Assembly: GCA_020057065.1 (NCBI GenBank)
Contig: JAGVGM010000119.1
Location: 1-43,008 of the forward strand
DNA: 43,008 bases
Origin: Thermodesulfovibrionia bacterium
GTDB taxonomy: Bacteria; Nitrospirota; Thermodesulfovibrionia; UBA6902
Direction of reading: 5' to 3'
Shown: in pieces, positions 12,782 to 38,424 of the stretch
How positions within the stretch are numbered: the stretch's first letter is position 1
Layout: each line of letters opens with the position of its first letter
Position numbers and translations under genes: made by a program
The notes under the pieces: model-generated
What the model saw: the letters and a program-made list of their open reading frames with translations, nothing else
Told to the model about the DNA's origin: nothing
Databases searched by the model: none

Positions 12782-12905
12782 ATTATGGGTGGCAGAAGCG
12801 CAAAAGATAATTTTAAGACACGATTCGGGGAGCCAATTGAAAATCCGAACTTTTTTCACGTTTGCGCAACGGTTCGTGAGCCGCCTCTATAACAATGGAG
12901 AGAAC

Positions 12906-15428: not shown

Positions 15429-15435
15429 TAAAAAA

Positions 15436-15501
15436 TTGGCGATGGAGTTCGCCGTTAACCGCCTCAGCAGGCTAATAACTCCTACTTTAAACAAAAGGAG
15501 G
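15436..15501 (+). promoter_or_regulatory. Fluoride riboswitch (crcB RNA) with SD-sequestering expression platform
   Basis: The aptamer matches the crcB motif: stem-loop GGCGATGGAGTTCGCC (15438-15453), the conserved AAC, a second stem GCCT/AGGC (15461-15464 with 15469-15472), then CTAATAACTCCTACT. The pseudoknot pairs GGAGT (15444-15448) with ACTCC (15478-15482). Four of those same bases, in CTCCT (15479-15483), can instead pair with the SD AGGAG (15496-15500) of crcB. Fluoride binding would stabilise the pseudoknot, release the SD and turn translation on. Fluoride riboswitches upstream of crcB are well established; the mutually exclusive pairing is read directly from this sequence. Confidence 0.95.
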
Positions 15502-15510
15502 TATTAGATT

Positions 15511-15897
15511 ATGTTGAGGCTTTTTGTTATTGCGGTTGGCGGTGCGATCGGCACGCTTTTGCGTTACCTCATGGGCGGGCTTGATTACCGGTTTTCAAGC
15601 GGAGTTTTTCCGGTAAGTACGTTGGTTGTGAATGTAACCGGATCCTTGGCGATAGGTTTCTTATGGAGTATCGTTGATCGTTTCAATTTTTCGCCGAACG
15701 TGAGGATGTTTGTCTTCATAGGCATTCTTGGCGGCTATACAACATTCTCCACGTTCAGTCTTGAAACTTTTAACCTGATGAGAGACGGTGAGTATCGGAT
15801 TGCTCTTATGAATGTGATTCTTTCGGTCATCTTGAGCATCGGTGCCGTATTCTTGGGATACTTTGCTTCCAAAGTGCTGTTGAATATATATAAATGA
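15511..15897 (+). CDS. crcB: Fluoride channel/exporter CrcB (FluC)
   Basis: The 128-residue product has four transmembrane helices and the family signatures GGAIGTLLRYLMG in helix 1, VNVTGSLAIGFLW in helix 2 with the pore asparagine, and GGYTTFSTFSLET in helix 3 with the phenylalanine box and sodium-site residues. FluC works as an antiparallel dimer in the inner membrane and lets cytoplasmic fluoride leave. AAGGAGG sits 9 nt before the ATG and is the SD controlled by the riboswitch. It is followed 13 nt later by a DUF190 gene. Confidence 0.97.
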   Translation: MLRLFVIAVGGAIGTLLRYLMGGLDYRFSSGVFPVSTLVVNVTGSLAIGFLWSIVDRFNFSPNVRMFVFIGILGGYTTFSTFSLETFNLMRDGEYRIALMNVILSVILSIGAVFLGYFASKVLLNIYK

Positions 15898-15910
15898 AGG
15901 GGGTGGCAAA

Positions 15911-16243
15911 ATGAAATTGCCTGAAGAAGGAATGCTTTTGCGGATATTTATTGGTGAATCAGATAACTATAAGGGCAAAGCTCTTTACGAGCAAATTGTT
16001 ATTAAAGCGAGAGAGATGAATCTTGCGGGGGCAACTGTGACACGAGGCATTATGGGGTTTGGGGCAGATAGCCGAATGCACACGGCGAAGCTATTGCGTC
16101 TTTCCGAAGATCTTCCCGTGGTGATCGAATTGGTTGATACTGAAGAGAATCTTAATAAGTTACGGCCTTTTCTTGATGAGGTGGTAGAGGAGGGATTAAT
16201 TACGCTCGAAAAGGTTAGGGTGATTAAATATCGGCATAAATAA
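15911..16243 (+). CDS. DUF190 domain protein, 110 aa
   Basis: The single DUF190 domain (GlnB/PII-like ferredoxin fold) covers the protein: LLRIFIGESDNYKGKALYEQ, GATVTRGIMGFGADSR and PVVIELVDTEE are the family's conserved blocks. DUF190 proteins are very often encoded beside crcB, so a link to fluoride sensing or FluC regulation is likely but unproven. It is 13 nt behind crcB with GGGGGTGG as SD and should share the riboswitch. Its stop is only 3 nt from the stop of the converging recombinase gene, so a mobile element's edge abuts it almost exactly. Confidence 0.92.
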   Translation: MKLPEEGMLLRIFIGESDNYKGKALYEQIVIKAREMNLAGATVTRGIMGFGADSRMHTAKLLRLSEDLPVVIELVDTEENLNKLRPFLDEVVEEGLITLEKVRVIKYRHK

Positions 16244-16246
16244 TTG

Positions 16247-18295
16247 TCACCGGTTGTGGATGGTTTTGATATAAGATTGACGTTGTTCAGGGGTGCTTAG
16301 TCCGGCAATTCGTAGCAGGGTTTTACCGGAAAATCGTTTGATTAAGGATTGATCTTCAGTGGTTTTCATGATAGAAATAAAGTCATCCGGGAGCTTTTCG
16401 ATGATGGTCATCAGCTGGGATACCCTGGCCCGGGTTACACCGAAATGGTTGCCAGCGGCAGTTTGTGTTCTTTGAGGGTTTTCGACCAGATATTCCTGAA
16501 CTCGGATGGCCATGGCTACGATATTCTTGTAGACTGGCGGGGGCGGCAGGGGCCGGGAGGGCAAGGGATCGTATAAACTGATGGAAGTGCCTCGGCCGCG
16601 GTGCCGGTACATCTTCACAAGTATATGTATTTCCTTGCACTTAGAGAGGTGTCTCTTGTAGTGTTCTGCGTCCAGCGTGGGGAGCCAGTTAGACGTCTGA
16701 CAGCGGATTTCTTCGTTGTCAGATTTACATAGTTCAAGTAGCCCTGTGTCGGGTTGACGCCCATACAGGGCTATTTGTATTTTGGTGGGGCTTAATATGG
16801 CTTTGTGTAGGACAAGCCGCATCATATCCTTCTGGCGGTATGGCTTTATCTTGTCAAAAAGGTCTGTAAAACGGTTAAGAGCCAGCATTATCAGCTCTTT
16901 ATTGATTGATTCCCGCTCGATTTCTTTGATCATGGTCTCAAGCGAGGCAATACCGGTTTCTATTTCTTTCCTGCGCTGGCCAAGCTCATTCAGTTTCTCA
17001 TTTAAGAAAATACTGCTCTCATCTGTGGCCATAGCAGTCCATTTATTCATTATCCCATCAGCAAAGGCCTTTACTTCGGCCAGTTCTTTTTGGAGATGGG
17101 TTTTTCTATGTTTAAGCTGCGGTAGTTCTTTCATTAGCTTATCATTGGTATGAGCTATGAGTTTTTCCATAAGCCCTGAGTCTGACGATAAGTACTTAAT
17201 GCGCTCAATGATGACACGTTCTATCTCTTCAGCCGGGAGTTTAAACCTGCAGTCTTTGTTTTTGCAGATATAGTAAAAGTATTTACTGCCCCGCTTCCCG
17301 GTTCCGCAGGTCCCTTCCATTTGAGCACTACATTTACCACACCACAAAAGCCCGCCGTTAAGAATATAAGAGTGTTTTATTATCTTTGTGCCGTTATGCT
17401 TGGTTTTGGTGTTTTGTTTGAGAAGCTTATGGACATTATAGAAGGTCTCTTCATCTATCACTGGCTCCCATACAGCTTTGACTGTTCTGTAGCGTTCTTT
17501 TTCCGTGAGCTTGGCCTGATCCTGTAGTTTTCTTTTTTTGTTTATCTCTTTCAGGCCGATATAAGCGCAATTAACTAATAGTTGTTTCATGGATGATCGG
17601 CCGAATTTCTCAGGGGTGCGAAATTTACCCCTTCGCGAGGTATAGCCTTTGGTGCGATAACCGTTATCATTAAGGGCCCGGGCTGTTCCCATAAGCGAGC
17701 CGCATTCAAGGTATTTTTTAAAGGCGAATTGAACGAGTGATTTTTCTTTCTCACTTACGATTGGGTAGCCTTTACGGTTAGGATCAAGGTCAAAGCCTAA
17801 CAAATGCCCGCCATTCCATAGGCCGCGTTCGGCTCTTGCGAGCGTGGCTTCTTTGTTGCGCTCGGAGGTCTGCGTCCGCTCAAATTCAGCCAGAGCCATC
17901 ATTATCGTTATAAACAGTTTTCCTTGCGATGATGTGGTGTCATAGTTCTGCTTCAAGCAGACAAATTCCACGTCATACTTATTGAGTATCTCAAAGAAAT
18001 TCAAGAAGTCTCTGACAGAGCGACTTATGCGGTCAAGGGCAGTGCATATGATAGTGTTTACCTTGCCTGATTTTATGTCCTCAAGGAGTTGGGCAAATTC
18101 AATGCTTCGGAAGGAGTCTTTACCGGATATGCCTTTAAGGACATATCTTCCAGTTTCAATCCAGTGCTCCTCGCAGGCAGTCTTTTTATATTCGATATGG
18201 GCTTGTAGCCGCTGGAGCTGGTTGGTAAGCGAGCCCTCAGGGTTCCGGGCCTGCTTATCTGTGCTTACCCTTATCACAAATCCGCATTTTTTCAT
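16247..18295 (-). CDS. Large serine recombinase with an extra C-terminal helix-turn-helix tail
   Basis: A resolvase catalytic domain (about residues 1-150) carries the nucleophile S11 in FVIRVSTDKQ and ALDRISRSVRDFL. The recombinase domain (about 180-310) follows, then a zinc ribbon with CGKC and CKNKDC near 340-370 and a coiled coil (about 390-480). This is the large serine integrase layout, which joins attP and attB without a host factor. Beyond it lies a tail with VQEYLVENPQRTQTAAGNHF, a ParB/KorB-like HTH. Start: ATG 18295 after GGAAG; ATG 18310 or a TTG at 18349 that overlaps the upstream stop are alternatives. It is the likely integrase of the island to its right. Confidence 0.9.
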   Translation of the reverse strand: MKKCGFVIRVSTDKQARNPEGSLTNQLQRLQAHIEYKKTACEEHWIETGRYVLKGISGKDSFRSIEFAQLLEDIKSGKVNTIICTALDRISRSVRDFLNFFEILNKYDVEFVCLKQNYDTTSSQGKLFITIMMALAEFERTQTSERNKEATLARAERGLWNGGHLLGFDLDPNRKGYPIVSEKEKSLVQFAFKKYLECGSLMGTARALNDNGYRTKGYTSRRGKFRTPEKFGRSSMKQLLVNCAYIGLKEINKKRKLQDQAKLTEKERYRTVKAVWEPVIDEETFYNVHKLLKQNTKTKHNGTKIIKHSYILNGGLLWCGKCSAQMEGTCGTGKRGSKYFYYICKNKDCRFKLPAEEIERVIIERIKYLSSDSGLMEKLIAHTNDKLMKELPQLKHRKTHLQKELAEVKAFADGIMNKWTAMATDESSIFLNEKLNELGQRRKEIETGIASLETMIKEIERESINKELIMLALNRFTDLFDKIKPYRQKDMMRLVLHKAILSPTKIQIALYGRQPDTGLLELCKSDNEEIRCQTSNWLPTLDAEHYKRHLSKCKEIHILVKMYRHRGRGTSISLYDPLPSRPLPPPPVYKNIVAMAIRVQEYLVENPQRTQTAAGNHFGVTRARVSQLMTIIEKLPDDFISIMKTTEDQSLIKRFSGKTLLRIAGLSTPEQRQSYIKTIHNR

Positions 18296-18345
18296 TATCT
18301 TATCTTCCATATCAACACAAACCCTATAATATGAAGGGCAACAAG

Positions 18346-18561
18346 TCAAGCTGAATCAACCTGCTCGACGGGTGGTTCTGTAAGCGCCTTTGTCTCCTCA
18401 AGAAGGGCCTCAGCCTGCCTTTTTCGCTCCGGGCACTCTTTTAAAAGCCCCTGGTCCTTCAAATATGCGTATAAGCCATCGGAGAGGATGTCAATAAATG
18501 CCTCGTTCCATTTGGCTTCGTCCTCAATCGGTATATAGGATATTTCGATTTTCTCCATCAT
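18346..18561 (-). CDS. Small recombinase-associated protein, 71 aa
   Basis: This acidic 71-residue protein (YIPIEDEAKWNEAFIDIL near the start) lies immediately upstream of the recombinase, and its stop touches the recombinase's possible TTG start. Small acidic genes in this position are common beside large serine recombinases and may be directionality factors or repressors, but I recognise no named family. GAGAGAAG precedes tandem ATG codons at 18561/18558. It is transcribed away from a long inverted repeat that separates it from the replication genes. Confidence 0.65.
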   Translation of the reverse strand: MMEKIEISYIPIEDEAKWNEAFIDILSDGLYAYLKDQGLLKECPERKRQAEALLEETKALTEPPVEQVDSA

Positions 18562-18576
18562 TTACTTCTCTCTATT

Positions 18577-18650
18577 GCGTGTATATCGGATTTTTTTGAG
18601 ATTTGTCACAGTTAGGTGTGACAGTTTGAGAAAAAACCCGATATACATGC
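18577..18650. repeat. Long imperfect inverted repeat between the divergent recombinase and replication genes
   Basis: TGTATATCGG (18580-18589) matches the reverse complement of CCGATATACA (18638-18647), and the pairing continues as T7 against A6 with one mismatch. A second, inner pair TGTCACA (18604-18610) / TGTGACA (18617-18623) sits around a 6-nt centre. The two are separated by unpaired bases. It occupies the whole intergenic space next to the serine recombinase. It could be a divergent operator, an attachment-type site, or a cruciform. I see no convincing -35/-10 pair within it. Confidence 0.65.
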
Positions 18651-18682: not shown

Positions 18683-18913
18683 ATGAAGGATAAATATTTT
18701 GAAGCAGGCAATATCTACCTTGCAACCTATCTTGTGTCTCAGGGGTTTGTGATGCGCGGGATTTCTGGATCAGGCAGATACAAGCGGGTTTTATTTGATA
18801 ATACCTCTGAGGTAAAATCAGCCTCAGATAAATTTTTCAGTGATTCGGAGGTGCAAAAGATTTTTAATTGCTACCGAAGAGTAAAGGACTTTATATTTCA
18901 GAACGGAGTGTAA
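18683..18913 (+). CDS. DUF5659-like small protein, 76 aa
   Basis: The sequence reads KYFEAGNIYLATYLVSQGFV, then a central GSGRYKRVLFDNTSEV, then a helical FFSDSEVQKIFNCYRRVKDF. This resembles DUF5659 proteins, which are small, and are common in phage, plasmid and integrative elements next to replication genes. The function is unknown. SD AAAGGTAAG precedes the ATG. The stop is 2 nt before the ATPase gene, so they form one operon reading away from the recombinase. Confidence 0.6.
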   Translation: MKDKYFEAGNIYLATYLVSQGFVMRGISGSGRYKRVLFDNTSEVKSASDKFFSDSEVQKIFNCYRRVKDFIFQNGV

Positions 18914-18915
18914 CT

Positions 18916-20529
18916 ATGAGAGAGAAGAGAAGAATAGAGAAGGAAAATCTTGCCACAGATATTCCCACCCAAGTTAAGCCCATCATTGAAAATGTAATTA
19001 ATGGTTGCCATGAGGCCTATCGTCGTGCGTACCCTACCCAAGGCGAAGTCCTTACGCGAGACTGCGAAGAAACCATAAAAGACTACTATCGCGACCAGCA
19101 GGGAAATTCTTTTCTGGTACTCCCTATTGATGACCATCTGGAAGTATGCGCGACTAATAGTTCACGCTTCAGGAACTGGCTTGCCAAACGATACCGGCAT
19201 AAATACAAAAGCCCGCCGGGTAATGAGGCCTTAAAACAGGCGCGTATTCAGGCAGAGGCAAAATGCGAGGATGCGCCTCAAGTCGAGCTTTATAACCGTG
19301 TAGGCTGGTATCACGGCGTGATTTGTTACGATTTAACCACGCCTGACTGGCGAGGCGTAATGATTACAAAAGACGGATGGGAGATTGTTCCTCTTCCCCC
19401 GATATTCAGGCGCTACAATCATCAGGCTGAGCAGGTCATTCCTGTCAAAGGTTATGACGCGAAAAAGATTCTGGGATTTTGTAATATCAGTGAATCTGAC
19501 CACTGCTTATTCATGACTGCCTTAGCTTCATTTTTGATTCCGGATATACCTCATGTTATACCGGTGCAGGTTGGCGAACAAGGCACAGGCAAGTCCAACA
19601 ATTCCCGGATGATTAAGAGCTTATGCGATCCTTCCAAGGTTATGCTTATCTCAAGCCCAAAGGATTTAGAGCAGGCGCAGATGATAGCGGATAAACACTG
19701 GATAAACACATTCGATAATCTTTCCAGGATTCCCGAATGGTTCAGTGATTTCTTGTGCCGGGCCGTAACCGGCGAGGGCGACATGAAACGCTCCCTTTAC
19801 ACCAATGACAAGGAGTTCATAAGGACATATCGCAGATGCTTTGTATTAAACGGTATAGGAAACTCTGTAGGCAGGCCCGACCTTTTGGATAGAGCCATTA
19901 TCATCGATATCCCGCCTCTAAAAGAGACTCGGCCTGAAAAGCAGATAATTGATGAATGGAAAGCACATCTCCCCGGAATATTAGGTGGTTTCTTTACAGC
20001 TATATCAGGCGCAATGGCTATTGTCAGCACAGTAAAAGGCCATGAAAGATTCAGGATGGCTGATTTCGCCCAGTGGGGCGCGGCATTGGCCGAGGCCCTG
20101 GGATATTCCCGAGATGAATTCTTTAAGAAATATCAGGAGTCGGTTGCATATAAATGGGAAGATACGGCTGAGGAAAATCCTATCATTCAGAAGCTGACCT
20201 ATCTTGTGGAATCAAACAAAGGCAAGTGGTGTGGCTCAGCCACGACACTGCTTGAGTATATTAAGCCGGAAACCAGCGGTTTCGCCGCTAGGCGAGTAGG
20301 ATATGGGAAGCGCATTATAGATAACCCCAAGGCTCTTGCATCGGAGCTTATGAGGATAGCGCCGGTTATGCGTAGCATTGGGATCGATATTGTGCGGAAT
20401 AAAAAACGTGAAGCCGGAACCGGAAGAAAACTCTTTATTCTGCAAAAGGTTAAAGGCAATCCACTCTTTGGGAAGGATGTGAATGAAGGTGTGAATGTCT
20501 GTGAACGTCGCGAAGAAAGGCAGTTCTGA
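18916..20529 (+). CDS. P-loop replication ATPase (primase/helicase-like) of a mobile element
   Basis: The 537-residue product has a central ATPase: Walker A GEQGTGKSN (K226, S227), then a Walker-B-like HWINTFDNLS, an arginine-rich GDMKRSLYTNDKEF and GRPDLLDRAIIIDIPP. This arrangement is that of the D5/primase-associated helicases encoded by phages and integrative elements, which unwind their own origin. The N-terminal 190 residues show no certain primase motif. I chose ATG 18916, 2 nt after the upstream stop, since a frame from 18868 runs inside that gene. Repeats of GTGAAC begin in its last codons and continue downstream, as in self-regulated replicons. Confidence 0.75.
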   Translation: MREKRRIEKENLATDIPTQVKPIIENVINGCHEAYRRAYPTQGEVLTRDCEETIKDYYRDQQGNSFLVLPIDDHLEVCATNSSRFRNWLAKRYRHKYKSPPGNEALKQARIQAEAKCEDAPQVELYNRVGWYHGVICYDLTTPDWRGVMITKDGWEIVPLPPIFRRYNHQAEQVIPVKGYDAKKILGFCNISESDHCLFMTALASFLIPDIPHVIPVQVGEQGTGKSNNSRMIKSLCDPSKVMLISSPKDLEQAQMIADKHWINTFDNLSRIPEWFSDFLCRAVTGEGDMKRSLYTNDKEFIRTYRRCFVLNGIGNSVGRPDLLDRAIIIDIPPLKETRPEKQIIDEWKAHLPGILGGFFTAISGAMAIVSTVKGHERFRMADFAQWGAALAEALGYSRDEFFKKYQESVAYKWEDTAEENPIIQKLTYLVESNKGKWCGSATTLLEYIKPETSGFAARRVGYGKRIIDNPKALASELMRIAPVMRSIGIDIVRNKKREAGTGRKLFILQKVKGNPLFGKDVNEGVNVCERREERQF

Positions 20530-21197: not shown

Positions 21198-21238
21198 TTG
21201 ACTTCTTGTCACAAAAAATATATACTTTTTGTGACAAG
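21198..21238 (+). promoter_or_regulatory. AbiE-type promoter inside a 13-bp-arm palindromic operator
   Basis: TTGACT (21198-21203), a 17-nt spacer and TATACT (21221-21226) make a strong sigma-70 promoter. CTTGTCACAAAAA (21205-21217) and TTTTTGTGACAAG (21226-21238) are perfect inverted repeats that flank the -10. AbiEi antitoxins are known to repress their own operons by binding inverted repeats, and the abiEi gene begins 16 nt later, so this is most likely its operator. Confidence 0.85.
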
Positions 21239-21253
21239 GAAGAGGTGATTTAT

Positions 21254-21853
21254 ATGGCTCAAAGCATTGAAAATAAAATAGCTAGCAGGATTTATAGCAA
21301 GGACGCGGGTTGGGTCTTTACACCAAATCACTTTATTGATCTTGGGAGTCGTACCGCCGTGGCTCAAGCTTTGGTGCGGTTGGTAAGAGTCGGTACTATT
21401 CGCCGGTTAGCGCATGGTCTCTATGATTATCCTGAAAAGCATCCTACTTTAGGAGAGCTTCCGGCAAATTATGAGCGCATCGCCCAAGCGTTGGCAGGGC
21501 GGGATAATTTAAGGATCCAGCCTTCCGGGGCGTATGCCGCGAATCTGCTTGGTTTAACCGAGCAGGTGCCAGCAAGGATTGTCTTTTTGACAGATGGGTC
21601 TAACAGGACAGTACAAATCAATAAACAGCAGCTCGTGCTAAAAAGAACAACGCCCAAAAATATGGCGACTGCAGGACGCGTGAGTGGTCTGGTTATTCAA
21701 GCCTTGCGTTATTTAGGACAAAATAATGTTGATGATAAAATCATCGGGATCCTCAAGAAAAAATTATCTTCCAATGACAAACGTCAGCTTATTAATGACC
21801 TGCGTTTTGCTCCTGTGTGGATAGGTATAATATTCAGAAAATTACAAGGATGA
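21254..21853 (+). CDS. abiEi: Type IV toxin-antitoxin system antitoxin, AbiEi family (DUF6088)
   Basis: The 199-residue product has an N-terminal winged helix (ENKIASRIYSKDAGWVFTPN, then RLVRVGTIRRLAHGLYDYP), followed by the DUF6088/AbiEi C-terminal domain with LRIQPSGAYAANLLGLTEQ and RIVFLTDGSNRTVQI. AbiEi neutralises the AbiEii nucleotidyltransferase without stable contact and represses the operon. The start is ATG 21254, after GGAAGAGGTG; an earlier frame start at 21206 lies inside the operator. The toxin gene follows after 6 nt. Confidence 0.92.
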   Translation: MAQSIENKIASRIYSKDAGWVFTPNHFIDLGSRTAVAQALVRLVRVGTIRRLAHGLYDYPEKHPTLGELPANYERIAQALAGRDNLRIQPSGAYAANLLGLTEQVPARIVFLTDGSNRTVQINKQQLVLKRTTPKNMATAGRVSGLVIQALRYLGQNNVDDKIIGILKKKLSSNDKRQLINDLRFAPVWIGIIFRKLQG

Positions 21854-21859
21854 GATTCT

Positions 21860-22885
21860 ATGGATAAATTCGTATCACTTGACGCGAAAGATAAACGCGC
21901 CTACTTCGAAGTGGCCGCGGCCAACTTAAACATAATGCCGCAACTGGTTGAAAAGGACTTTTGGGTCTGCTGGATTCTAAAAGTCCTTTTTTCATTGCCG
22001 GAGGTTGGTTCGCATTTGACCTTCAAGGGAGGAACATCGCTTTCGAAGTGCTACAACGTCATAAAGCGATTTTCGGAAGACATTGATATTTCCATAGAGA
22101 GACCGTTTTTGTCCAAGACAAAGGCAATTGAGCCGGGTAAAGATAAGAGCAACAAAGAAAATCAAAAACGGCTTAAAGAATTGCAATCGGCATGCAAGAC
22201 GAAGATTGATGAGGTTATTGTTCCAAGTTTAAAACAAGCAGTCGCGGTGGCACTACCTAATAAGAAAGAATGGAGTCTTGCGTTGGATGAGGAGGCCCCA
22301 GACGGCCAAACGGTTCTATTCACTTTTCCTCATGCCATGATGAGTACTGTGGAAAGCTATGTGAAATCATCCGTTAAAATCGAGTTTGGCGCCCGCGCCG
22401 ATCACTGGCCGGTCGAAACAGCGACAATTGTTCCATATATCGTGAATGTTCCAGGAGAACGCGTTGTTGAAGGGGTTGCTGTGCGTGTTTTAGCCGCGGA
22501 GAGGACTTTTTGGGAGAAGGCGACGATTTTGCATATGATCTATTATTATCCGTCTGAAAAGAATGCGCCTCCGCGAATGTCACGGCATTATTATGACATA
22601 TACGCGATGGCGGATTCTCCAATATATAAGCGGGCTTTGGAGAATATTTCACTGCTAAAAACTGTTGCCGAGCATAAGGCTTTATTTTTCAAGGCTAATT
22701 GGGCACATTACGAGGAAGCAACGCCGTCAGGTCTGCGGCTATTGCCTCGCGATGATCAAATGAATTCATTAAAGAACGATTATCGACAGATGCAACAGAT
22801 GTTTTTTGAGGAACCGCCCTCATTCGACCAGATCATAGAAAAATTGCGGGGCATAGAAAAACAAATCAATAGGATTTCAGTATGA
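21860..22885 (+). CDS. abiEii: AbiEii-type nucleotidyltransferase toxin
   Basis: The 341-residue product belongs to the AbiEii/AbiGii family of DNA polymerase-beta-like nucleotidyltransferases. Motif I is LTFKGGTSLSKCYNVIKRFS followed by the metal-binding acidic pair EDIDIS. A later VRVLAAERTFWEKATILHMI and RHYYDIYAM are the conserved helical motifs of the family. Related toxins add nucleotides to tRNA or other acceptors and stop growth during phage attack. It is 6 nt after abiEi and overlaps the phosphoesterase gene by 4 nt, so expression is coupled to the genes behind it. Confidence 0.93.
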   Translation: MDKFVSLDAKDKRAYFEVAAANLNIMPQLVEKDFWVCWILKVLFSLPEVGSHLTFKGGTSLSKCYNVIKRFSEDIDISIERPFLSKTKAIEPGKDKSNKENQKRLKELQSACKTKIDEVIVPSLKQAVAVALPNKKEWSLALDEEAPDGQTVLFTFPHAMMSTVESYVKSSVKIEFGARADHWPVETATIVPYIVNVPGERVVEGVAVRVLAAERTFWEKATILHMIYYYPSEKNAPPRMSRHYYDIYAMADSPIYKRALENISLLKTVAEHKALFFKANWAHYEEATPSGLRLLPRDDQMNSLKNDYRQMQQMFFEEPPSFDQIIEKLRGIEKQINRISV

Positions 22886-23445
22886 ATTATTGGTGGACAT
22901 CAGATTATCACTTTTCGCATTTCAATATCATTCGCTATTGCAAAAGGCCTTTTGAGACGGCCGATGAAATGAATGAAACGATCATCCGAAAGCATAACGA
23001 GAGAGTTAAGCCAAACGATACGGTCTTTTTTCTGGGCGACTTCATTTTTAAAGGTGGGAAAGAAGGTGGAGTAGAGAAATACCGGCAGTTCGAAAAGCGG
23101 CTGAATGGCAAGTTCATTTTTATAAAAGGTAACCACGACCGGCACAACAGCCTCAATACGATTATTTCGAAGGTCTACATTCATTATGGTTCTAAGGATA
23201 TTTGCATGACGCACCGGGTCGAGGATGCCGATCCAACTGTGCCTTGGAATTTTTGCGGCCATGTTCATGAAAAGTACAAAGTGAAACGATTGAATGAGAA
23301 TTCAATAATAGTAAACCTTTGTGTCGAGGTCTGGGATTATTATCCGGTTGCGTTTAAACAGATCAGTTCTGCGATTGCCACATTTTTAAAAGAAGAGAAG
23401 AAATTTAGTGTGCAAGAGGGTGTAACCGGTTCAAACGGCTCGTAA
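22882..23445 (+). CDS. Calcineurin-like metallophosphoesterase, 187 aa
   Basis: The bimetal site is complete: TSDYHFSH (DxH), FLGDF (GD), KGNHDRH (GNHD), MTHR and CGHVHEKY (GHxH). Proteins of this short form hydrolyse phosphomonoesters, phosphodiesters or cyclic nucleotides; several occur in toxin or nucleic-acid repair contexts. The start overlaps abiEii (ATGA). The substrate is not evident. Its position between a nucleotidyltransferase toxin and radC makes an RNA or nucleotide end-processing role conceivable. Confidence 0.9.
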   Translation: MNYWWTSDYHFSHFNIIRYCKRPFETADEMNETIIRKHNERVKPNDTVFFLGDFIFKGGKEGGVEKYRQFEKRLNGKFIFIKGNHDRHNSLNTIISKVYIHYGSKDICMTHRVEDADPTVPWNFCGHVHEKYKVKRLNENSIIVNLCVEVWDYYPVAFKQISSAIATFLKEEKKFSVQEGVTGSNGS

Positions 23446-23484
23446 AGGGCTCAGAATTTTAAGAGAAGAACAGAGAAGGGAAGA

Positions 23485-24195
23485 ATGGTGAAGGAAAGAA
23501 AAGCGACAGGAATCAAGACTTGGCCGGAGGACGACCGGCCACGCGAGAAGTTGCTCAAAAAGGGCGCAGGGGCTTTGAGTAATTCAGAGCTTCTGGCGAT
23601 TCTTCTTCGCACCGGCACCCATGGCACCAGCGCAATTGACCTCGCCCGCAAGATTCTTAAAAAATTCAATACATTCCGCAATATGGCGCATACGGACGCC
23701 CGCGACTGGAAGGAATTCAAAGGCTTAGGAGGGGCTAAGATAGCCCATATTCAGGCCGCGCTTGAAATCGGGCGGCGCTATCGCGAGGACGATGTGTCCA
23801 CCGGGAAACAGAAGATAGCCTCTACCAAGGATGTCGTGGATATCGTCATGCCTCAGCTTCGCGATCTTAAAACAGAGGTTTTTAAGGTCGTTTGTCTCGA
23901 CTCAAATAATCGGATTATAGATATAACAGATGCGGCTTGCGGAACAGTCAACCGTGCAATGCCGATAGTAAGGGAAATTATTCATTCCGCTTTACAGAAA
24001 TTCGCAGTGTCAGTTATCTGCGTTCACAATCATCCCTCAGGCGATCCTAAACCTAGCAAAGAGGACAGGGATTTTACTCGTGAGCTCTGTCAAGCAGGGA
24101 ATGTTATGCAGGTCAAGATTTTAGATCATCTCATTATTGGAGATAACCAGCATCACAGTTTTGCTGATAGCGGTGAACTTGTAGCGTACAAATAA
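23485..24195 (+). CDS. radC: RadC-family JAB/MPN-domain protein
   Basis: The 236-residue product has an N-terminal UPF0758 helical part with helix-hairpin-helix (LLAILLRTGTHGTSAIDLAR, FKGLGGAKIAHIQAALEIGR) and a C-terminal JAMM metalloprotease-like domain with HNHPSGDPKPSKEDRD, the zinc motif. RadC's biochemical role is unresolved. Copies are frequent in genomic islands and near restriction or antirestriction genes. SD AGAGAAGGGAAG precedes ATG 23485. It is 39 nt after the phosphoesterase and 8 nt before hsdR, so it is embedded in the defence operon. Confidence 0.93.
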   Translation: MVKERKATGIKTWPEDDRPREKLLKKGAGALSNSELLAILLRTGTHGTSAIDLARKILKKFNTFRNMAHTDARDWKEFKGLGGAKIAHIQAALEIGRRYREDDVSTGKQKIASTKDVVDIVMPQLRDLKTEVFKVVCLDSNNRIIDITDAACGTVNRAMPIVREIIHSALQKFAVSVICVHNHPSGDPKPSKEDRDFTRELCQAGNVMQVKILDHLIIGDNQHHSFADSGELVAYK

Positions 24196-24203
24196 GAGGA
24201 AGT

Positions 24204-26891
24204 ATGCCGGAACAGAATTGGAACGAACACAAAACAAGAAAACAATATATAGACAAGCTCCTGTTTAATTCAAAGTGGGGGCCTATCGTTTCTTTTGATG
24301 ACGGCAAGGCTTATGGCCATGCTTCTGTAGAGGAATATCCTACGCAGACAGGACCTTGTGATTACGTGCTTTTTCATGCGAAACGCCCTCTGGCGGCTGT
24401 CGAAGGAAAGAAAGTTTCGGTCGGGCCTCAAAACGTGCTTCAGCAAGCACAGCGTTACGCCCGCGGATTTCAGAAAAGTCCGTTTACTTTCGGTGAATAT
24501 CATCTCCCGTTTATTTACTCAACTAATGGCAAGATTATTTGGTTTCAGGATTTACGTCATCCCTTGAACCGTTCAAGAGAAATAACCGCAATCCATACAC
24601 CCAATGCTTTAGAGGAATTGCTCTCAAGGGACGAAGAAACCGCTAAGGCGTGGCTTAGGAACAATGCCATCGACAATCCGGTTTTACGCCCGTATCAGAA
24701 AGAAGCTATTGCGGCCATAGAACAGGCTATAGCTGATAGAAAACGCAACATGCTTGTTGCTATGGCAACCGGAACAGGAAAAACATTCACGATCATCAAT
24801 TTGATATACCGGCTTATGAAATCAGGACTTGCCAAACGTGTTTTATTCTTGGTGGATCGGCGCGCCCTCGCAGCGCAGGCGGTTACTGCGCTGGCAAGCT
24901 TTGAGGCAGAACCTGGTCTTAAATTCGATAAATGCTATGAGGTATACAGCCAGCGTTTCAGGCGCGAGGATTTAGATGAGGATATAAAGTTTGACCCAAA
25001 GGTCCTACCTACTGAATACTTAACAGATCCGAAAAGTCGCGATAGTTTTATGTATGTTTGTACTATTCAAAGGATGCGAATTAATCTTTTTGGTCAAGAA
25101 GGTATGTTCGGCGTTGCCTCGGGAGACCTTGAAGAAGATGAAGAAGCAGAAAAACTGGATATTCCCATCCACGCCTTTGATGTTGTCATAGCCGATGAAT
25201 GCCATCGCGGCTATACTGCCCAAGAGGAAAGCAAATGGCGCGAAGTCCTAAAACACTTTGACGGTATACGAATAGGCCTTACAGCTACGCCTGCTGCGCA
25301 TACAATGGCATTCTTCAAAGAAGTTGCCTTTCGTTATGAATATGAACGCGCCGTTAAAGAGGGATATTTGGTTGATTATGACGCAGTATCAATAAAATCA
25401 GATATAACGGTCAATGGCGCTTTCTTAAAAGAAGGTGAAGAAGTTGGTCTTAAAGATACCAAAACTGGGCAGTTAGTTTTTGATATCTTGGAAGATGAAC
25501 GCCTTCTTGAGCCGGAAAGCAACGAAGCTGAATGGACTGCCCCGGACCGCAATAAGAAAATCGTAAAAGAACTTAAAAAATATTTGCTCAGCCAGGAAGA
25601 ATCTTTGGGGCATTTCCCGAAGACACTAATTTTTGCTGATAATGACCTGCCCCATACCTCCCATTCCGACCAGTTGGTTGATATTTTAAGGGATGAATTT
25701 AATAGAGGCGATGCCTTTGTCCAGAAAATAACCGGAAGCCCTACGGTTGACAGGCCTCTTCAAAGGATACGAGAATTCAGAAACAGGCAAAACCCTGGGA
25801 TTGTGGTTACGGTTGATATGCTTTCTACTGGAGTAGATGTGCCTAAGATTGAGAACATAGTCTTTTTACGGTCAGTAAAATCAAGGATTCTCTTTGAGCA
25901 AATGATGGGCCGGGGCACGCGTCTGTGCCCGGAAATTAATAAGACTCACTTTACAGTCTTTGATTGTTTTGGCGGGACACTCTTAGAATACTTCAAGCAG
26001 ACAACCAGCATAACAGCCGAAGCGCCTGTAAAACCCACTAAAACGATTCAGGAGATAGTCCAGGCAATCGCCAATAATCAAAGCAGAGCTTATAACATTA
26101 GGGTCTTGTCAAAGAGGCTTCAGCGTATTTCAAAAAACATAACGCAAGAAAGCAGAAATGAGTTTAACTATATTCTTGGGGAAGATATTGCAGATTTTGC
26201 GATGAAGCTTGATGAAAAGCTTTCAAAGGACTGGGCTGGCACGATGAAGATTCTCCAAGGTGAGGCATTCTTACATTTATGCGAGAATTACCAAAGGCCG
26301 AAGCGCGAATTTATCATTGCTGAGTCAGCTGAGGACTATGTGGCTTCCGAAGTGATTTTTAGGGCGGCTGACGGTAAAGAGCTTAAGCCAGCGGATTACC
26401 TGAAAATGTTTGAGGAGTTTGTCAAAAAGAACCCGGAGCATATTGACGCAATCGACATTTTACTCAATAGGCCCCGGGATTTTCATACTGATGAGCTTAA
26501 GGCTTTGCGCGAAAAACTTGCAACTAAACCAGACAACCTGATAGACAAATTTAATGAGCGCAATTTGCGCAGGGCATACAACAAGGAATTAGCAGATATA
26601 GTTTCTATTATTCGGCATGCTGCCAAAAACGAAGACCTTTTAACTGTGGAAACCCGCATTGAACGAGCTTTGGCCACGGTGAAAGCAAGACATCATTTTA
26701 CCGATGGGCAGGAAAAGTGGCTTGAGCTGATTCAGCGCCATTTAGTCGCGAATCTGTTGATTGAAAAAGACGACATTGATTCCTTGCCAATCTTTACAAG
26801 GCAAGGAATGAATTATACAAAGCTAAATCGGATATTTGAAGGTAAGCTTGATGAACTCTTAAAAGAGATAAATGAGGCGGTGTTGACATGA
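24204..26891 (+). CDS. hsdR: Type I restriction-modification system, restriction/translocase subunit (system 2)
   Basis: The 895-residue HsdR is of the shorter EcoEI-like type. The nuclease region holds CDYVLFHAKRPLAAVEGKK (D and ExK of PD-(D/E)xK). The motor has Walker A ATGTGKT (K193), ADECHRGY as a DEAD-box variant, GLTATPA and QMMGRGTRLC. The C-terminal ~300 residues match the EcoEI_R_C helical region. It differs clearly from the 1057-residue HsdR at 4070, so the two systems are not recent duplicates. SD AGAGGAAG precedes the ATG. It overlaps hsdM by 4 nt. Confidence 0.95.
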   Translation: MPEQNWNEHKTRKQYIDKLLFNSKWGPIVSFDDGKAYGHASVEEYPTQTGPCDYVLFHAKRPLAAVEGKKVSVGPQNVLQQAQRYARGFQKSPFTFGEYHLPFIYSTNGKIIWFQDLRHPLNRSREITAIHTPNALEELLSRDEETAKAWLRNNAIDNPVLRPYQKEAIAAIEQAIADRKRNMLVAMATGTGKTFTIINLIYRLMKSGLAKRVLFLVDRRALAAQAVTALASFEAEPGLKFDKCYEVYSQRFRREDLDEDIKFDPKVLPTEYLTDPKSRDSFMYVCTIQRMRINLFGQEGMFGVASGDLEEDEEAEKLDIPIHAFDVVIADECHRGYTAQEESKWREVLKHFDGIRIGLTATPAAHTMAFFKEVAFRYEYERAVKEGYLVDYDAVSIKSDITVNGAFLKEGEEVGLKDTKTGQLVFDILEDERLLEPESNEAEWTAPDRNKKIVKELKKYLLSQEESLGHFPKTLIFADNDLPHTSHSDQLVDILRDEFNRGDAFVQKITGSPTVDRPLQRIREFRNRQNPGIVVTVDMLSTGVDVPKIENIVFLRSVKSRILFEQMMGRGTRLCPEINKTHFTVFDCFGGTLLEYFKQTTSITAEAPVKPTKTIQEIVQAIANNQSRAYNIRVLSKRLQRISKNITQESRNEFNYILGEDIADFAMKLDEKLSKDWAGTMKILQGEAFLHLCENYQRPKREFIIAESAEDYVASEVIFRAADGKELKPADYLKMFEEFVKKNPEHIDAIDILLNRPRDFHTDELKALREKLATKPDNLIDKFNERNLRRAYNKELADIVSIIRHAAKNEDLLTVETRIERALATVKARHHFTDGQEKWLELIQRHLVANLLIEKDDIDSLPIFTRQGMNYTKLNRIFEGKLDELLKEINEAVLT

Positions 26892-28303
26892 GTGACGTTG
26901 TCGGTAAATTATGGGGTTTTTGCCATACTCTTCGCCATGACGGAATTGATTACGGCGATTATATTGAACAGCTAACCTATCTTCTTTTTTTGAAGATGGC
27001 TGAGGAAAAAGGCGCCAATATTCCTAAGGAGTATTCTTGGCCGGTGTTACGCGAAAAGTCCGGGACAGAATTAACGGAATTTTATGTGGACGCTCTGCGC
27101 GGCCTTGGGAAACAAAAAGGCACGCTTGGCGATATCTATGCTGGAGCTATTTCAAAGTTTTCTAACCCGATTAATCTCAAGAGACTGATTAATCTCATTG
27201 ATGAGATCGAATGGACAAGCCTTAACGTGGATATCAAGGCAGCTGCTTATGAGGGCCTGCTTGAGAAATCCGCATCCGAAGGTAAAAAAGGCGCTGGCCA
27301 GTACTTTACGCCTCGGGTTCTCATCCAATCAATTGTCAGGTGCATGAAGCCGGATCCGCGTAAGTCAAAGGATTTTGTTATTCATGACCCGGCTGCTGGC
27401 ACAGGAGGTTTCTTAGTTTGTGCTTATGAGTGGTTGATAGAACATACTAAAGGTGGTCTTGAGCGAGACGATGCCAGGCGGATTACCAATAAGGTTTATA
27501 CCGGCACCGAGCTTGTAGCCAGGCCTCGTCGTCTTGCGCTTATGAATTTATATTTACATGGGATACATGCGAATATCTATCTCGGAGACTCAATTTACGA
27601 ACCGTTAAAAAGCACGCGATATGATTGTGTGCTTACTAATCCGCCCTTTGGCACCAAAGGCGCAAACCAGGCACCTGAGCGAGATGATTTCACAATTTCA
27701 ACCAGCAATAAACAACTCAATTTTATACAGCACGTTGTAAATATTCTAAAGCCTGGTGGACGTGCAGCTATGGTTTTGCCGGACAACTGTTTATTTGAGG
27801 ATAAAGCAACGGAGGTTATTGAAATTCTTACGCAGGATTGTGGTTTGCATACAATTCTGCGTCTGCCACGCGGGACATTTACGCCTTACAGTCAAGGAGT
27901 AAAAGCGAATGTGGTCTTCTTCCAGAGAGGGCTGCCAACTGAAAATGTCTGGATTTTTGACGCCCGCTCTAACGTACCCGGAATTACCAAAAAAGACAGG
28001 CCACTTTCTCCGGAACATTTTAAAGAATTTGAGAAATGTTTTGGCACGGATCCGAACGGACAGGGCAAGCGGACAGATCTGGGTGTTGAAGGCCGGTTCC
28101 GCAGATTTAATATTCAAGAAATCAAAGATCGTGGTTATAAGCTCGATATAACCTGGCTTAAGGATGAATCATCGGAAGACAGCGATGAGTTACCTGAGCC
28201 GCAAGATTTGGCAAGTGAAGCCATAACTGAACTTGAAGCGGTCGTTGATGACCTTCGGGAAATCGTGGAGCTTGTCGAAAAAGAAGAAGGCGTAGACAGA
28301 TGA
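26888..28303 (+). CDS. hsdM: Type I restriction-modification system, DNA N6-adenine methyltransferase subunit (system 2)
   Basis: The 471-residue HsdM has the helical N-terminal domain (LTYLLFLKMAEEKG), the linker GKKGAGQYFTPR, motif I DPAAGTGGFLVCAYEW and motif IV NPPF at N251. It is intact and translationally coupled on both sides (ATGA overlaps with hsdR and hsdS). Sequence blocks differ from the first HsdM, so the two methylases probably belong to different type I families and modify different targets. Confidence 0.95.
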   Translation: MSDVVGKLWGFCHTLRHDGIDYGDYIEQLTYLLFLKMAEEKGANIPKEYSWPVLREKSGTELTEFYVDALRGLGKQKGTLGDIYAGAISKFSNPINLKRLINLIDEIEWTSLNVDIKAAAYEGLLEKSASEGKKGAGQYFTPRVLIQSIVRCMKPDPRKSKDFVIHDPAAGTGGFLVCAYEWLIEHTKGGLERDDARRITNKVYTGTELVARPRRLALMNLYLHGIHANIYLGDSIYEPLKSTRYDCVLTNPPFGTKGANQAPERDDFTISTSNKQLNFIQHVVNILKPGGRAAMVLPDNCLFEDKATEVIEILTQDCGLHTILRLPRGTFTPYSQGVKANVVFFQRGLPTENVWIFDARSNVPGITKKDRPLSPEHFKEFEKCFGTDPNGQGKRTDLGVEGRFRRFNIQEIKDRGYKLDITWLKDESSEDSDELPEPQDLASEAITELEAVVDDLREIVELVEKEEGVDR

Positions 28304-29631
28304 GTAACGATTTGCCTCGAGGCTGGATGACTACAACGCTTGGAACAATTAGTTCTAAACCTCAATATGGATGGACGTGTAGGGCCGCTAATGTTGGTCA
28401 AATCAAATACGTTCGGACTACTGATATTTCTAATGGAAAAATTGATTGGCCAAGTGTTCCTTATTGCGAAGAGGTTCCTGAAGACATCGAGAAATATCGG
28501 GTCAAATCGAATGACATTCTTGTATCGCGAGCAGGTTCAGTAGGCGTTAGTTTACGTATCAAGGATGTTCCTTGTGATGCAGTGTTTGCATCGTACTTGA
28601 TTCGATTTAATGCATTGGATTCCATTGAGCCAAAATATATCGAAGCTTTTCTGAAATCGGATGGCTATTGGCGTTCTATCTCTGACTTTACTGCAGGTAT
28701 CGCGGTGCCGAATGTAAATGCTTCCAAATTGGCTTCTCTTGAGCTTCCTTTAGCTCCATTTAATGAACAACGTCGTATAGTATTGAAGCTTGAAAAATTG
28801 CTCAATAAAATCGAATCATCACAGAAACGGCTTACAAAAGTTAAGATCATCCTTAAACGATTCCGTCAATCCGTTCTCGCCGCTGCCTGCTCCGGCCGTC
28901 TTACCGCTGATTGGCGAGAGGAATCAGGCGGAGTGAGTAGCAAATTTAACAATAACAGTGCTGTTAATTTGCTGGATATTCCCGATACTTGGATTTGGAC
29001 AAAGCTTCCACGGACCGGAGAGATGAGTCGTGGGAGATCGCGCCATCGGCCAAGAAATGAACCGTCCTTATTTGGAGGGCAGTATCCATTTATTCAAACT
29101 GGAGATATTGCACAATCGGGTGGTCGAATAACTTCACATAAGCAGAATTACAGTGAAACGGGATTAACACAAAGTCGCCTTTGGCCTAAGGGAACTATTT
29201 GCATCACTATTGCTGCTAACATAGCCGAATCTGCGATTTTGACTTATCCGGCATGTTTCCCTGATAGTGTCGTTGGTATTATTGCGAATCCTAAGATTTG
29301 TGTTGCAGAGTATATTGAGTATTTCATCCGGGTTGCAAAAGCAGACCTTGCTATGTTTGCACCTGCTACTGCACAAAAGAACATTAACATTGCTATACTA
29401 AATGAAGTCTCTGTGCCTCTTCCGCCGTTGCCTGAACAACAGGAAATTGTACGTCGCGTGCGATCGCTTTTCAAGTTGGCTGACAAAATCGAGGCCCGCT
29501 ATACCAAAGCCCAAGCGCAGGTTGATAAGCTCACGCCGTCGATTCTCTCCAAGGCCTTCCGTGGCGAATTAGTTCCGCAGGACCCGAACGACGAGCCAGC
29601 GGAAGAATTATTACGAAGAATCAAAGGTTAG
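28300..29631 (+). CDS. hsdS: Type I restriction-modification system, DNA specificity subunit (system 2)
   Basis: The 443-residue HsdS has two target-recognition domains (about 1-150 and 210-370). After the first comes APFNEQRRIVLKLEKLLNKI, and after the second LPEQQEIVRRVRSLF, equivalent halves that show its internal pseudo-symmetry. It ends with SKAFRGELVPQDPNDEPAEE, a hallmark of the family. It fixes the DNA target of both methylation and cutting. The next gene starts 3 nt after its stop, so an accessory gene pair has been attached directly to the hsd operon. Confidence 0.95.
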   Translation: MSNDLPRGWMTTTLGTISSKPQYGWTCRAANVGQIKYVRTTDISNGKIDWPSVPYCEEVPEDIEKYRVKSNDILVSRAGSVGVSLRIKDVPCDAVFASYLIRFNALDSIEPKYIEAFLKSDGYWRSISDFTAGIAVPNVNASKLASLELPLAPFNEQRRIVLKLEKLLNKIESSQKRLTKVKIILKRFRQSVLAAACSGRLTADWREESGGVSSKFNNNSAVNLLDIPDTWIWTKLPRTGEMSRGRSRHRPRNEPSLFGGQYPFIQTGDIAQSGGRITSHKQNYSETGLTQSRLWPKGTICITIAANIAESAILTYPACFPDSVVGIIANPKICVAEYIEYFIRVAKADLAMFAPATAQKNINIAILNEVSVPLPPLPEQQEIVRRVRSLFKLADKIEARYTKAQAQVDKLTPSILSKAFRGELVPQDPNDEPAEELLRRIKG

Positions 29632-38395: not shown

Positions 38396-38424
38396 AAAAC
38401 TCGTCCAATAGGGGGAGCCAATTT
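38396..38424. repeat. Dispersed intergenic repeat, copy B
   Basis: Second copy of the unit at 37188-37216; AAACTCGTCCA and GCCAATTT are conserved and the middle differs. It is located between the membrane protein gene and the promoters of the first CxxC-x17-CxxC gene. Confidence 0.45.

Follow-up and report, generated by a model that had tools for sequence, protein, structure and literature searches.

What does a nested inverted repeat do between a recombinase gene and a replication gene? The question was raised by positions 18577-18650 of a 43,008-nt stretch of DNA (contig JAGVGM010000119.1 of GenBank assembly GCA_020057065.1, a Thermodesulfovibrionia bacterium of the Nitrospirota), and this whole stretch is called the window below. 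The repeat lies in a divergent intergenic region, from which the genes of a 71-aa protein and a large serine recombinase run leftwards and those of a DUF5659 protein and a replication protein run rightwards. The explanation that we favour, with a probability of roughly three in four, is that the palindrome is a back-to-back promoter pair for a sigma-70-family factor of uncultivated phages that carry a large serine recombinase. On the best reading of the sequence, the window element would be integrative and satellite-like, with integration and replication operons that come on once an infecting phage provides the sigma factor.

The outer arms, 18580-18589 (TGTATATCGG) and 18638-18647 (CCGATATACA), and the inner arms, TGTCACA at 18604-18610 and TGTGACA at 18617-18623 (18604..18623 together), were found exactly where the original prediction had placed them. 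Arms of 34 nt (18577-18610 and 18617-18650) are 76% complementary (26/34) around a loop of 6 nt. In 30 first-order Markov copies of the window, with loops of up to 40 nt allowed, the best 34-nt inverted repeat reached 21 to 24 of 34 and none reached 25, while the real window has four registers of at least 25/34, the best being 26/34; the repeat thus exceeds chance. It occupies 74 of the 121 bp between the divergent open reading frames (ORFs) at 18346-18561 (minus strand) and 18683-18913 (plus strand), and is present once in its own genome bin, G000. Since the stretches in the middle of the arms, TTTTTTGAGA and TTTGAGAAAAAA, are not complementary, two protein-binding half sites fit better than a single hairpin. 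Each half is a 33-bp unit, GTGACA-N14-CCGATATACA, with the inner arm in the position of a -35 element and the outer arm in that of a -10 element. The predicted promoter unit directed toward the 71-aa gene and the recombinase occupies 18577..18609 on the minus strand (GTGACAAATCTCAAAAAAATCCGATATACACGC), and the one directed toward the DUF5659 and replication genes occupies 18618..18650 on the plus strand (GTGACAGTTTGAGAAAAAACCCGATATACATGC); they scored 35.7 and 39.0, respectively, against a matrix of 44 units that includes both. The window shows two conserved blocks at -35/-10 spacing with a fixed spacer, reading into genes whose start codons lie 15 and 32 nt beyond the ends of the units.

A search of public genomes with the recombinase returned 16 loci, 12 of which bear the name Omnitrophota or Omnitrophica in their titles; in four (L022-L025), the match is confined to the helix-turn-helix (HTH) extension at the recombinase C-terminus. 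Recombinase relatives are 51-97% identical over the core. The divergent module is kept in six loci, namely the window, L010 (broken off by a contig end), L011, L013, L016, and L021. Conservation in related elements had been set beforehand as the test that could overturn the original prediction, and the prediction withstood it: the unit was found in all five relatives that keep a replication-type gene and the intergenic region. The intergenic regions hold 2 (window), 8 (L010), 10 (L011), 14 (L013), 4 (L016), and 6 (L021) units, 44 in all on both strands, with the consensus GCGACACTTT-N15-ATATACGC. At threshold 7, the motif matched 64 times in the array regions against a mean of 5.4 and a maximum of 10 in 100 shuffles, which serve as the control for a matrix trained on the regions it scored. 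When the whole sources of the six loci were scanned at threshold 9, the units were confined to the divergent intergenic region; some of the other loci gave isolated scores of 9-12, and a later matrix, trained on phages as well, gave a stray score of 17.7 in L142, ca. 26 kb from the L011 array. L010 and L021 have four and three back-to-back unit pairs, respectively. In L011, L013, and L016, the replication-directed units stand together on that side and the recombinase-directed ones on the other, and hence a stem or cruciform cannot be the conserved feature. The suggestion that the repeat might act as a cruciform was abandoned on these grounds, as units grouped by direction are not neighbouring stem arms, and an RNA hairpin was rejected for the same reason.

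The same layout occurs in sigma-bearing contigs. In six further loci with related recombinases (L014, L015, L017, L038, L039, and L040), a sigma-70-like gene stands in place of the DUF5659 gene of the window. Five of them have an element-specific version of the unit in two places, in front of the 71-aa gene and at the sigma gene's end, where the second copy precedes the next operon; L015 showed no clear unit. Of the two upstream units of L017 that entered the unit scan and the identity comparisons, one (at 7418, score 14.8) lies inside the gene of the 71-aa protein (p71) and is probably spurious. A scan of 2.9 million viral contigs with the motif alone returned six contigs, five of which carry sigma and recombinase genes and have two co-oriented matches 960-965 bp apart that flank the sigma gene. 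Two of the contigs, L091 and L095, are near-identical, and in the sixth, L090, one unit and no sigma or recombinase gene was found. Alignments of the sigma proteins then retrieved 15 and later 44 viral contigs (overlapping sets). Their typical layout is a recombinase gene and, diverging from it across a pair of units, a small gene (p72) and the sigma gene, followed by a further unit before a gene termed p90; contigs of the CCGGCA/CGTCA classes mostly show the first two units only. At least one unit scoring at least 12 was present in 34 of the 42 non-redundant sigma contigs, and 93 units were counted at threshold 8 in 45 scanned regions against 1-8 in ten shuffled sets. L090 was excluded from this unit scan, and the near-identical contigs L097, L110, and L114 and units scoring below 12 were dropped before the identity and covariation counts.

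The sigma proteins were identified by Sigma70_r2, above the Pfam cut-off in four of five proteins, and by the PHROG annotation 'RNA polymerase sigma factor' in all five. An AlphaFold model of the L111 protein is helical, with two confident parts and a disordered linker (mean predicted local distance difference test score, pLDDT, 76). Its 50 listed PDB matches are all, by title, sigma factors or transcription (mostly initiation) complexes, three of them at E ≤ 0.001 and all with low TM scores. A search of 50,697 phage records with the L091 sigma (E ≤ 1e-3) gave nothing. Among the matches listed (25 of 93 families) for 52 of the 78 ORFs of nine sigma contigs, six ORFs matched 'terminase small subunit', and several sigma contigs are thus probably phages. 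Searches of the viral contigs with the 71-aa protein alone gave no relatives. Between the unit pair and the sigma gene, 35 of 46 contigs encode p72 (L098:2319-2543 and homologues), which has the motif RF..RI.VVY...GILKREPT..ELLGI and is a candidate anti-sigma factor or co-regulator.

The unit varies with the sigma factor. Identity of the -10 block was 0.89 within a phage, a value not reached in any of 2000 label permutations, and 0.58 between phages. The distance comparison covered the 25 of 34 unit-bearing phages that have all four genes, at least two units, and a recombinase of more than 400 aa, a set to which L017 does not belong. Distances between units correlated with those between sigma proteins (0.72), p72 (0.61), p90 (0.58), and recombinases (0.40). 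The partial correlation of sigma remained 0.66 given the recombinase, 0.48 given p72, and 0.55 given p90 (0/1000 permutations each), while the partial correlations given sigma were 0.00 for the recombinase, 0.005 for p72, and -0.12 for p90. Besides, the covariation is specific to regions: the C-terminal part of sigma (region 4) followed the -35 block (0.66) more closely than the -10 block (0.52), and the N-terminal part (region 2) the -10 block (0.64) more closely than the -35 block (0.49). This is what promoters of these sigma factors should show. Particular helices go with particular -35 sequences: PR(G/S)T(L/V)YE with CCGACA in seven phages, DKHRMI(I/V)YRE with GTGACA in five of five, NIPRGTLFDE with CCGGCA in three, and KHRSNVYRD with GCGACA in two (L104 and L118) whose -10 blocks differ.

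The units of the window belong to the GTGACA/CCGATATACA class and match phage units (L105, L108, L111, and L112) at 17 of 17 block positions. Its minus-strand unit agrees with the recombinase-directed unit of viral contig L112 at all 17 block positions and at 29 of 33 overall, and its plus-strand unit is identical at 32 of 33 positions to the sigma-directed unit of viral contig L111. The weaker-looking unit of the window, with A at unit position 7, faces the recombinase, which is the polarity seen in phages; this A occurs in 16 of 29 recombinase-directed phage units and in 2 of 49 others, and in five of eight against none of eight when the window, L010, and L021 are taken together. The spacing of the window pair is 41, compared with 40-45 in five GTGACA phages. 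Across 395 genomes, the window-class pattern was found only in G000.

No sigma factor of this family was found at E ≤ 1e-3 in G000 or in the genomes of L010, L011, L016, and L021, and the genome of L013 gave one weak match (E 3.6e-6) on another contig. When the sigma alignment was run against 395 genomes of the window's own phylum at E ≤ 1e-12, no match was obtained, an empty result that is uninformative there. The unit co-occurs with sigma in viral contigs, while none was found in the window's own element or genome.

The larger arrays appear to combine several phage classes. The recombinases of L010 and L021 are 93-97% identical to that of the window, and in these two arrays the identity of the -10 blocks within a pair was 0.92 (149 of 20,000 re-pairings do as well), while units of different pairs shared 0.57 (L010) and 0.65 (L021), about the level between phages. 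For 19 of the 44 units in the arrays, a phage unit agrees at 16 or more of the 17 block positions; column-shuffled units gave 2.4 such cases on average and 6 at most. L010 has two CCGGCA/CGTCA-type pairs, spaced 59 and 60 as in phages of those classes (58-60), and a GTGACA pair spaced 40; the fourth pair of L010 (31) and the first of L021 (55) fit no phage value seen. On this evidence, promoters from different phage groups seem to be assembled in the arrays of L010, L013, and L021. For L011 and L016, whose units agree less closely with those of phages (at 16 or more of 17, with a single phage group each), the case for a mixed collection is weaker.

Based on these results, we propose that regulation would proceed as described below. 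The inner arms, GTGACA on each strand, would be -35 elements bound by sigma region 4, and the outer arms, CCGATATACA, would be -10 elements bound by region 2; the covariation of phage -10 blocks with region 2 points to 18579..18589 (minus strand) and 18638..18648 (plus strand) as the proposed -10 elements. One promoter would drive the 71-aa gene and the recombinase, for integration and excision, and the other the DUF5659 and replication genes, so that the palindromic look would be a by-product of two like promoters firing apart. Since no such sigma was found in the element or the bin, the pair should stay silent until a phage of the matching class arrives, and the data suggest an element that stays off until an infecting virus turns it on. 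Once the phage sigma is present, the element would excise and replicate along with the phage as a satellite, and excision, replication, and perhaps cargo expression would be timed to infection. Promoter activity, dependence on an incoming phage, and this satellite life cycle are what we infer from the comparisons above. Arrays could let one element answer several phages. A further and still tentative proposal, to which we give somewhat less than even odds, is that sigma-less elements carry a panel of promoters in which each back-to-back pair is specific to the sigma of one phage clade, in its -35 and -10 sequences and, in one element, also in the spacing of the pair. The array would then be a heritable, turning-over record for sensing several phages and for launching excision, replication, and defence as soon as one of them expresses its sigma. 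An array might also soak up phage sigma as a decoy.

Several points weigh against these promoters. Their activity is read from covariation, and the sensing of a helper would follow from it at one further remove. The covariation itself comes from 25 related phages and consists of distance correlations rather than a tree-aware test, and p72 and p90 also correlate with the unit as long as sigma is left out of account. A spacer of 15 was found in 53 of the 64 matches at threshold 7 and in nearly all strong ones; sigma-70 promoters are expected to be less strict in spacer length. Eight of the 42 sigma contigs lack a matrix match of at least 12; two of these, L115 and L120 (L038 and L014 among the loci above), have a repeated variant of their own, and six are unexplained. 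The unit calls and the matrix were trained partly on arrays, and when contigs were compared without a matrix, 5 of 15 (L075, L079, L080, L087, and L089) did better than their own shuffles; L077 failed this comparison with a second copy that overlaps the end of the sigma gene, an excluded region, and the nine others gave no support. The lack of a resident sigma is provisional: the genomes are metagenome bins or unfinished, and a sigma could lie elsewhere or be too divergent. Finally, most of these loci also have p71 or p72, which might act on the same sites as a regulator.

Among the alternatives, the one that survives best, while being unlikely, is that the element descends from a phage and has lost its sigma, leaving the pair as a relic or to be read by the host's own sigma factor. 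The single pair in the window and a replication protein without its N-terminal part are in keeping with such decay. Degeneration does not readily explain the four and three pairs kept by L010 and L021, which are of several classes and class-specific in sequence, or the window arms, which are near consensus.

It also seems improbable, and slightly more so, that the unit serves as an operator through which a small regulator found in phages and elements alike, either the 71-aa protein or its possible counterpart p72, activates or represses both operons. Such a small gene adjoins the pair in most loci (p72 in the contigs counted above, p71 in others), the distance between p72 proteins taken alone follows that between units, and the p71 and p72 profiles align weakly (hhalign 48%), making p72 a possible distant relative of the 71-aa protein. 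What an operator would not lead one to expect is the -35/-10 spacing, the region-specific covariation with sigma, and the disappearance of the p72 correlation once sigma is given; nor does the 71-aa protein show a recognised DNA-binding domain. The original prediction of a shared operator thus stands insofar as the repeat is the divergent control region of exactly the integration and replication operons, and is revised insofar as it is read here as a promoter pair. Two candidates for a shared reader of the unit were rejected: the 71-aa protein itself, as many unit-bearing phages have no p71 match (though p72 is a possible counterpart), and the DUF5659 protein, whose three-sequence profile had no match in the sigma contigs.

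Iterons of a replication origin bound by the adjacent primase/helicase would account for arrays of variable copy number beside an NrS-1-like replication gene. We consider this very improbable and rejected it, as the units are not tied to a replication initiator of their own: phages have units with p72 and sigma genes in the replication gene's place, the replication-protein alignment found no relative in the viral contigs, and the copy after the sigma gene stands upstream of a different operon. Hardly any credence is left for a site at which the serine recombinase binds or recombines, be it res-like or the attachment site that had been suggested for the repeat, even with a recombinase in 31 of the 34 unit-bearing sigma contigs and in all six array loci: the recombination core lies at the tRNA-Asn 3' end and the far element end in relatives and at 16679 in the window, 1.9 kb from the palindrome, the partial correlation of the recombinase given sigma is nil, and a recombinase half site would not span block centres ca. 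24 bp apart.

The promoter-pair explanation can be set beside known systems. Promoters of the P4 satellite respond to Ogr and delta, transcription activators of its P2 helper. Those activators work with the host sigma, while an alternative sigma is proposed for the window element, and we know of no panel of several helper classes in P4/P2. The phage sigma factors known to us are phage genes that act on phage or host promoters. They are likewise small sigma-70-family proteins with promoters of their own; here, promoters of such a class are present in an element that yielded no sigma. In phage-inducible chromosomal islands (PICIs), including the Staphylococcus aureus pathogenicity islands, an integrase lies on one side and divergent replication genes with a primase on the other, induction is tied to the helper, and a satellite that waits for its helper's regulator is a known idea (PMC6092414). 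The window element is alike in having an integrase beside a divergent replication module and differs in its control region, which is a pair or array of phage-sigma-type promoters with no recognised regulator of the PICI kind. Its recombinase is of the serine type, unlike the integrases of PICIs, which are tyrosine recombinases.

The serine recombinase of the window also has a distant match to CcrB and CcrC of the staphylococcal cassette chromosome (SCC). Its CcrB score was 134.6 bits against a cut-off of 900, and identity as an SCC element was rejected as none of CcrA, CcrB, and CcrC was recognised at its cut-off. SCC elements have a replication-type gene beside the recombinase and tandem attachment cores, both of which are also seen in the window element; the integration site of the window's relatives is tRNA-Asn. 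To our knowledge, SCC elements have no phage-sigma promoters, and a literature search on an inverted repeat at the SCCmec ccrAB promoter gave nothing to the point. In a search for satellites that use phage sigma factors, made on titles and the starts of abstracts with most subscription papers outside its coverage, the papers listed include some on phage sigma factors but none on such satellites.

The presence of an integrase and a replication module in the window element agrees with a satellite. Phage satellites measure about 7-20 kb according to the abstract of PMC13376191, and the L011, L013, and L016 elements measure 17.5-18.4 kb between cores. No virion structural family was among the Pfam matches listed (25 of 52 families) for 48 ORFs, comprising 41 of the 47 in the L011, L013, and L016 flanks and seven in the window.

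If the promoter-pair explanation is true, a mobile element would detect phage infection by means of promoters that respond to nothing but the sigma of the phage itself, and the phages met by a lineage would be legible from its arrays. The sigma helices and -35 sequences would amount to a natural code between region 4 and the promoter, in phages without cultured relatives, that could be useful for orthogonal promoters.

The 71-aa protein (18346..18561, minus strand) is conserved upstream of related recombinases, as seen in a 10-member alignment. It had no Pfam, NCBIfam, or PHROG match at E ≤ 0.1, and a two-helix fold was predicted (mean pLDDT 71). The core part of the recombinase (16680..18304, minus strand) matches the Pfam families Resolvase, Recombinase, and Zn_ribbon_recom, and its frame runs on to 16247. 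The DUF5659 gene (18683..18913, plus strand; PF18903, E 2.8e-7) is the first of the replication operon. The NrS-1-like replication protein (18916..20529, plus strand) has a Walker-A-like motif and aligns with the C-terminal two thirds of proteins bearing the NrS-1 polymerase HBD domain. It is 63-67% identical to the L011 and L013 proteins, which match PF22763, with 65% over the part that aligns with the longer L011 protein, and itself gave no Pfam, NCBIfam, PHROG, or PDB-sequence match. It lacks ca. 240 N-terminal residues found in L011 and L013, a short form shared with L021. To the right of this gene, the cargo (21206-29631) comprises a DUF6088/AbiEi-like and AbiEii pair, a phosphoesterase, RadC, and type I restriction R, M, and S genes.

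Before the recombinase start, 18305-18356 holds a conserved stretch like TTGATTCAGCTTGACTTGT...TATAGGGTT that is unlike the 33-bp unit and recurs at the same place in most of L010-L016, L021, L038, and L039; it is maybe a second, host-type promoter or a translational signal. The host of the contig is uncertain, since contamination of its bin is 6% and nine other genomes of the genus lack a gene that lies close to the right end of the contig. No terminal overlap that would make the contig circular was found.

The recombinase gene runs at its 3' end into tRNA-Asn in L011, L012, L013, L015, and L020, and behind a frameshift in L016; in L017 it runs into tRNA-Arg instead. The core TGGCTCCCC stands at both ends of the L011, L013, and L016 elements, which measure 18.2, 18.4, and 17.5 kb between cores, respectively; tRNA-Asn is at one end and an HTH gene at the far end, and L011 has an additional copy of the core 1.5 kb outside the element. 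L011 and L016 carry type I restriction genes, and an N6-methylase protein is encoded near L013. In the window, the same core lies at the 3' end of the recombinase core part (16679..16687, minus strand), and a fragment of an HTH gene with ca. 21% identity to the far-end HTH gene of relatives is fused in frame behind it (16247..16679, minus strand). The recombinase frame thus crosses the core into the HTH gene (16247-16690) as a 700-aa ORF. The frame of viral contig L113 likewise passes through the core into an HTH gene, and parts of the HTH region occur without the recombinase core in L022-L025. The 16679 junction looks like an attP or a tandem junction.

Three co-oriented copies of TGGCTCCCC are present in the window, at 12827, 16679, and 38412, which suggests tandem integrated elements or cargo segments. 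The copy at 38412..38420 (minus strand), a 9-mer match only, is a candidate far end, and the window element would be 21.7 kb long if it ends there. Directly beside the 16679 junction, 15429-16243 holds a fluoride riboswitch, a probable CrcB ORF, and a DUF190 gene, possibly the cargo of a neighbouring element. In L018, a group I intron (1044-1279; RF00028, 85 bits) separates the end of the recombinase gene from the remainder of tRNA-Asn; an intron thus apparently interrupts the attachment tRNA in this lineage. In the L021 genome, the tRNA is divided in the same way, its two halves being 224 bp apart.
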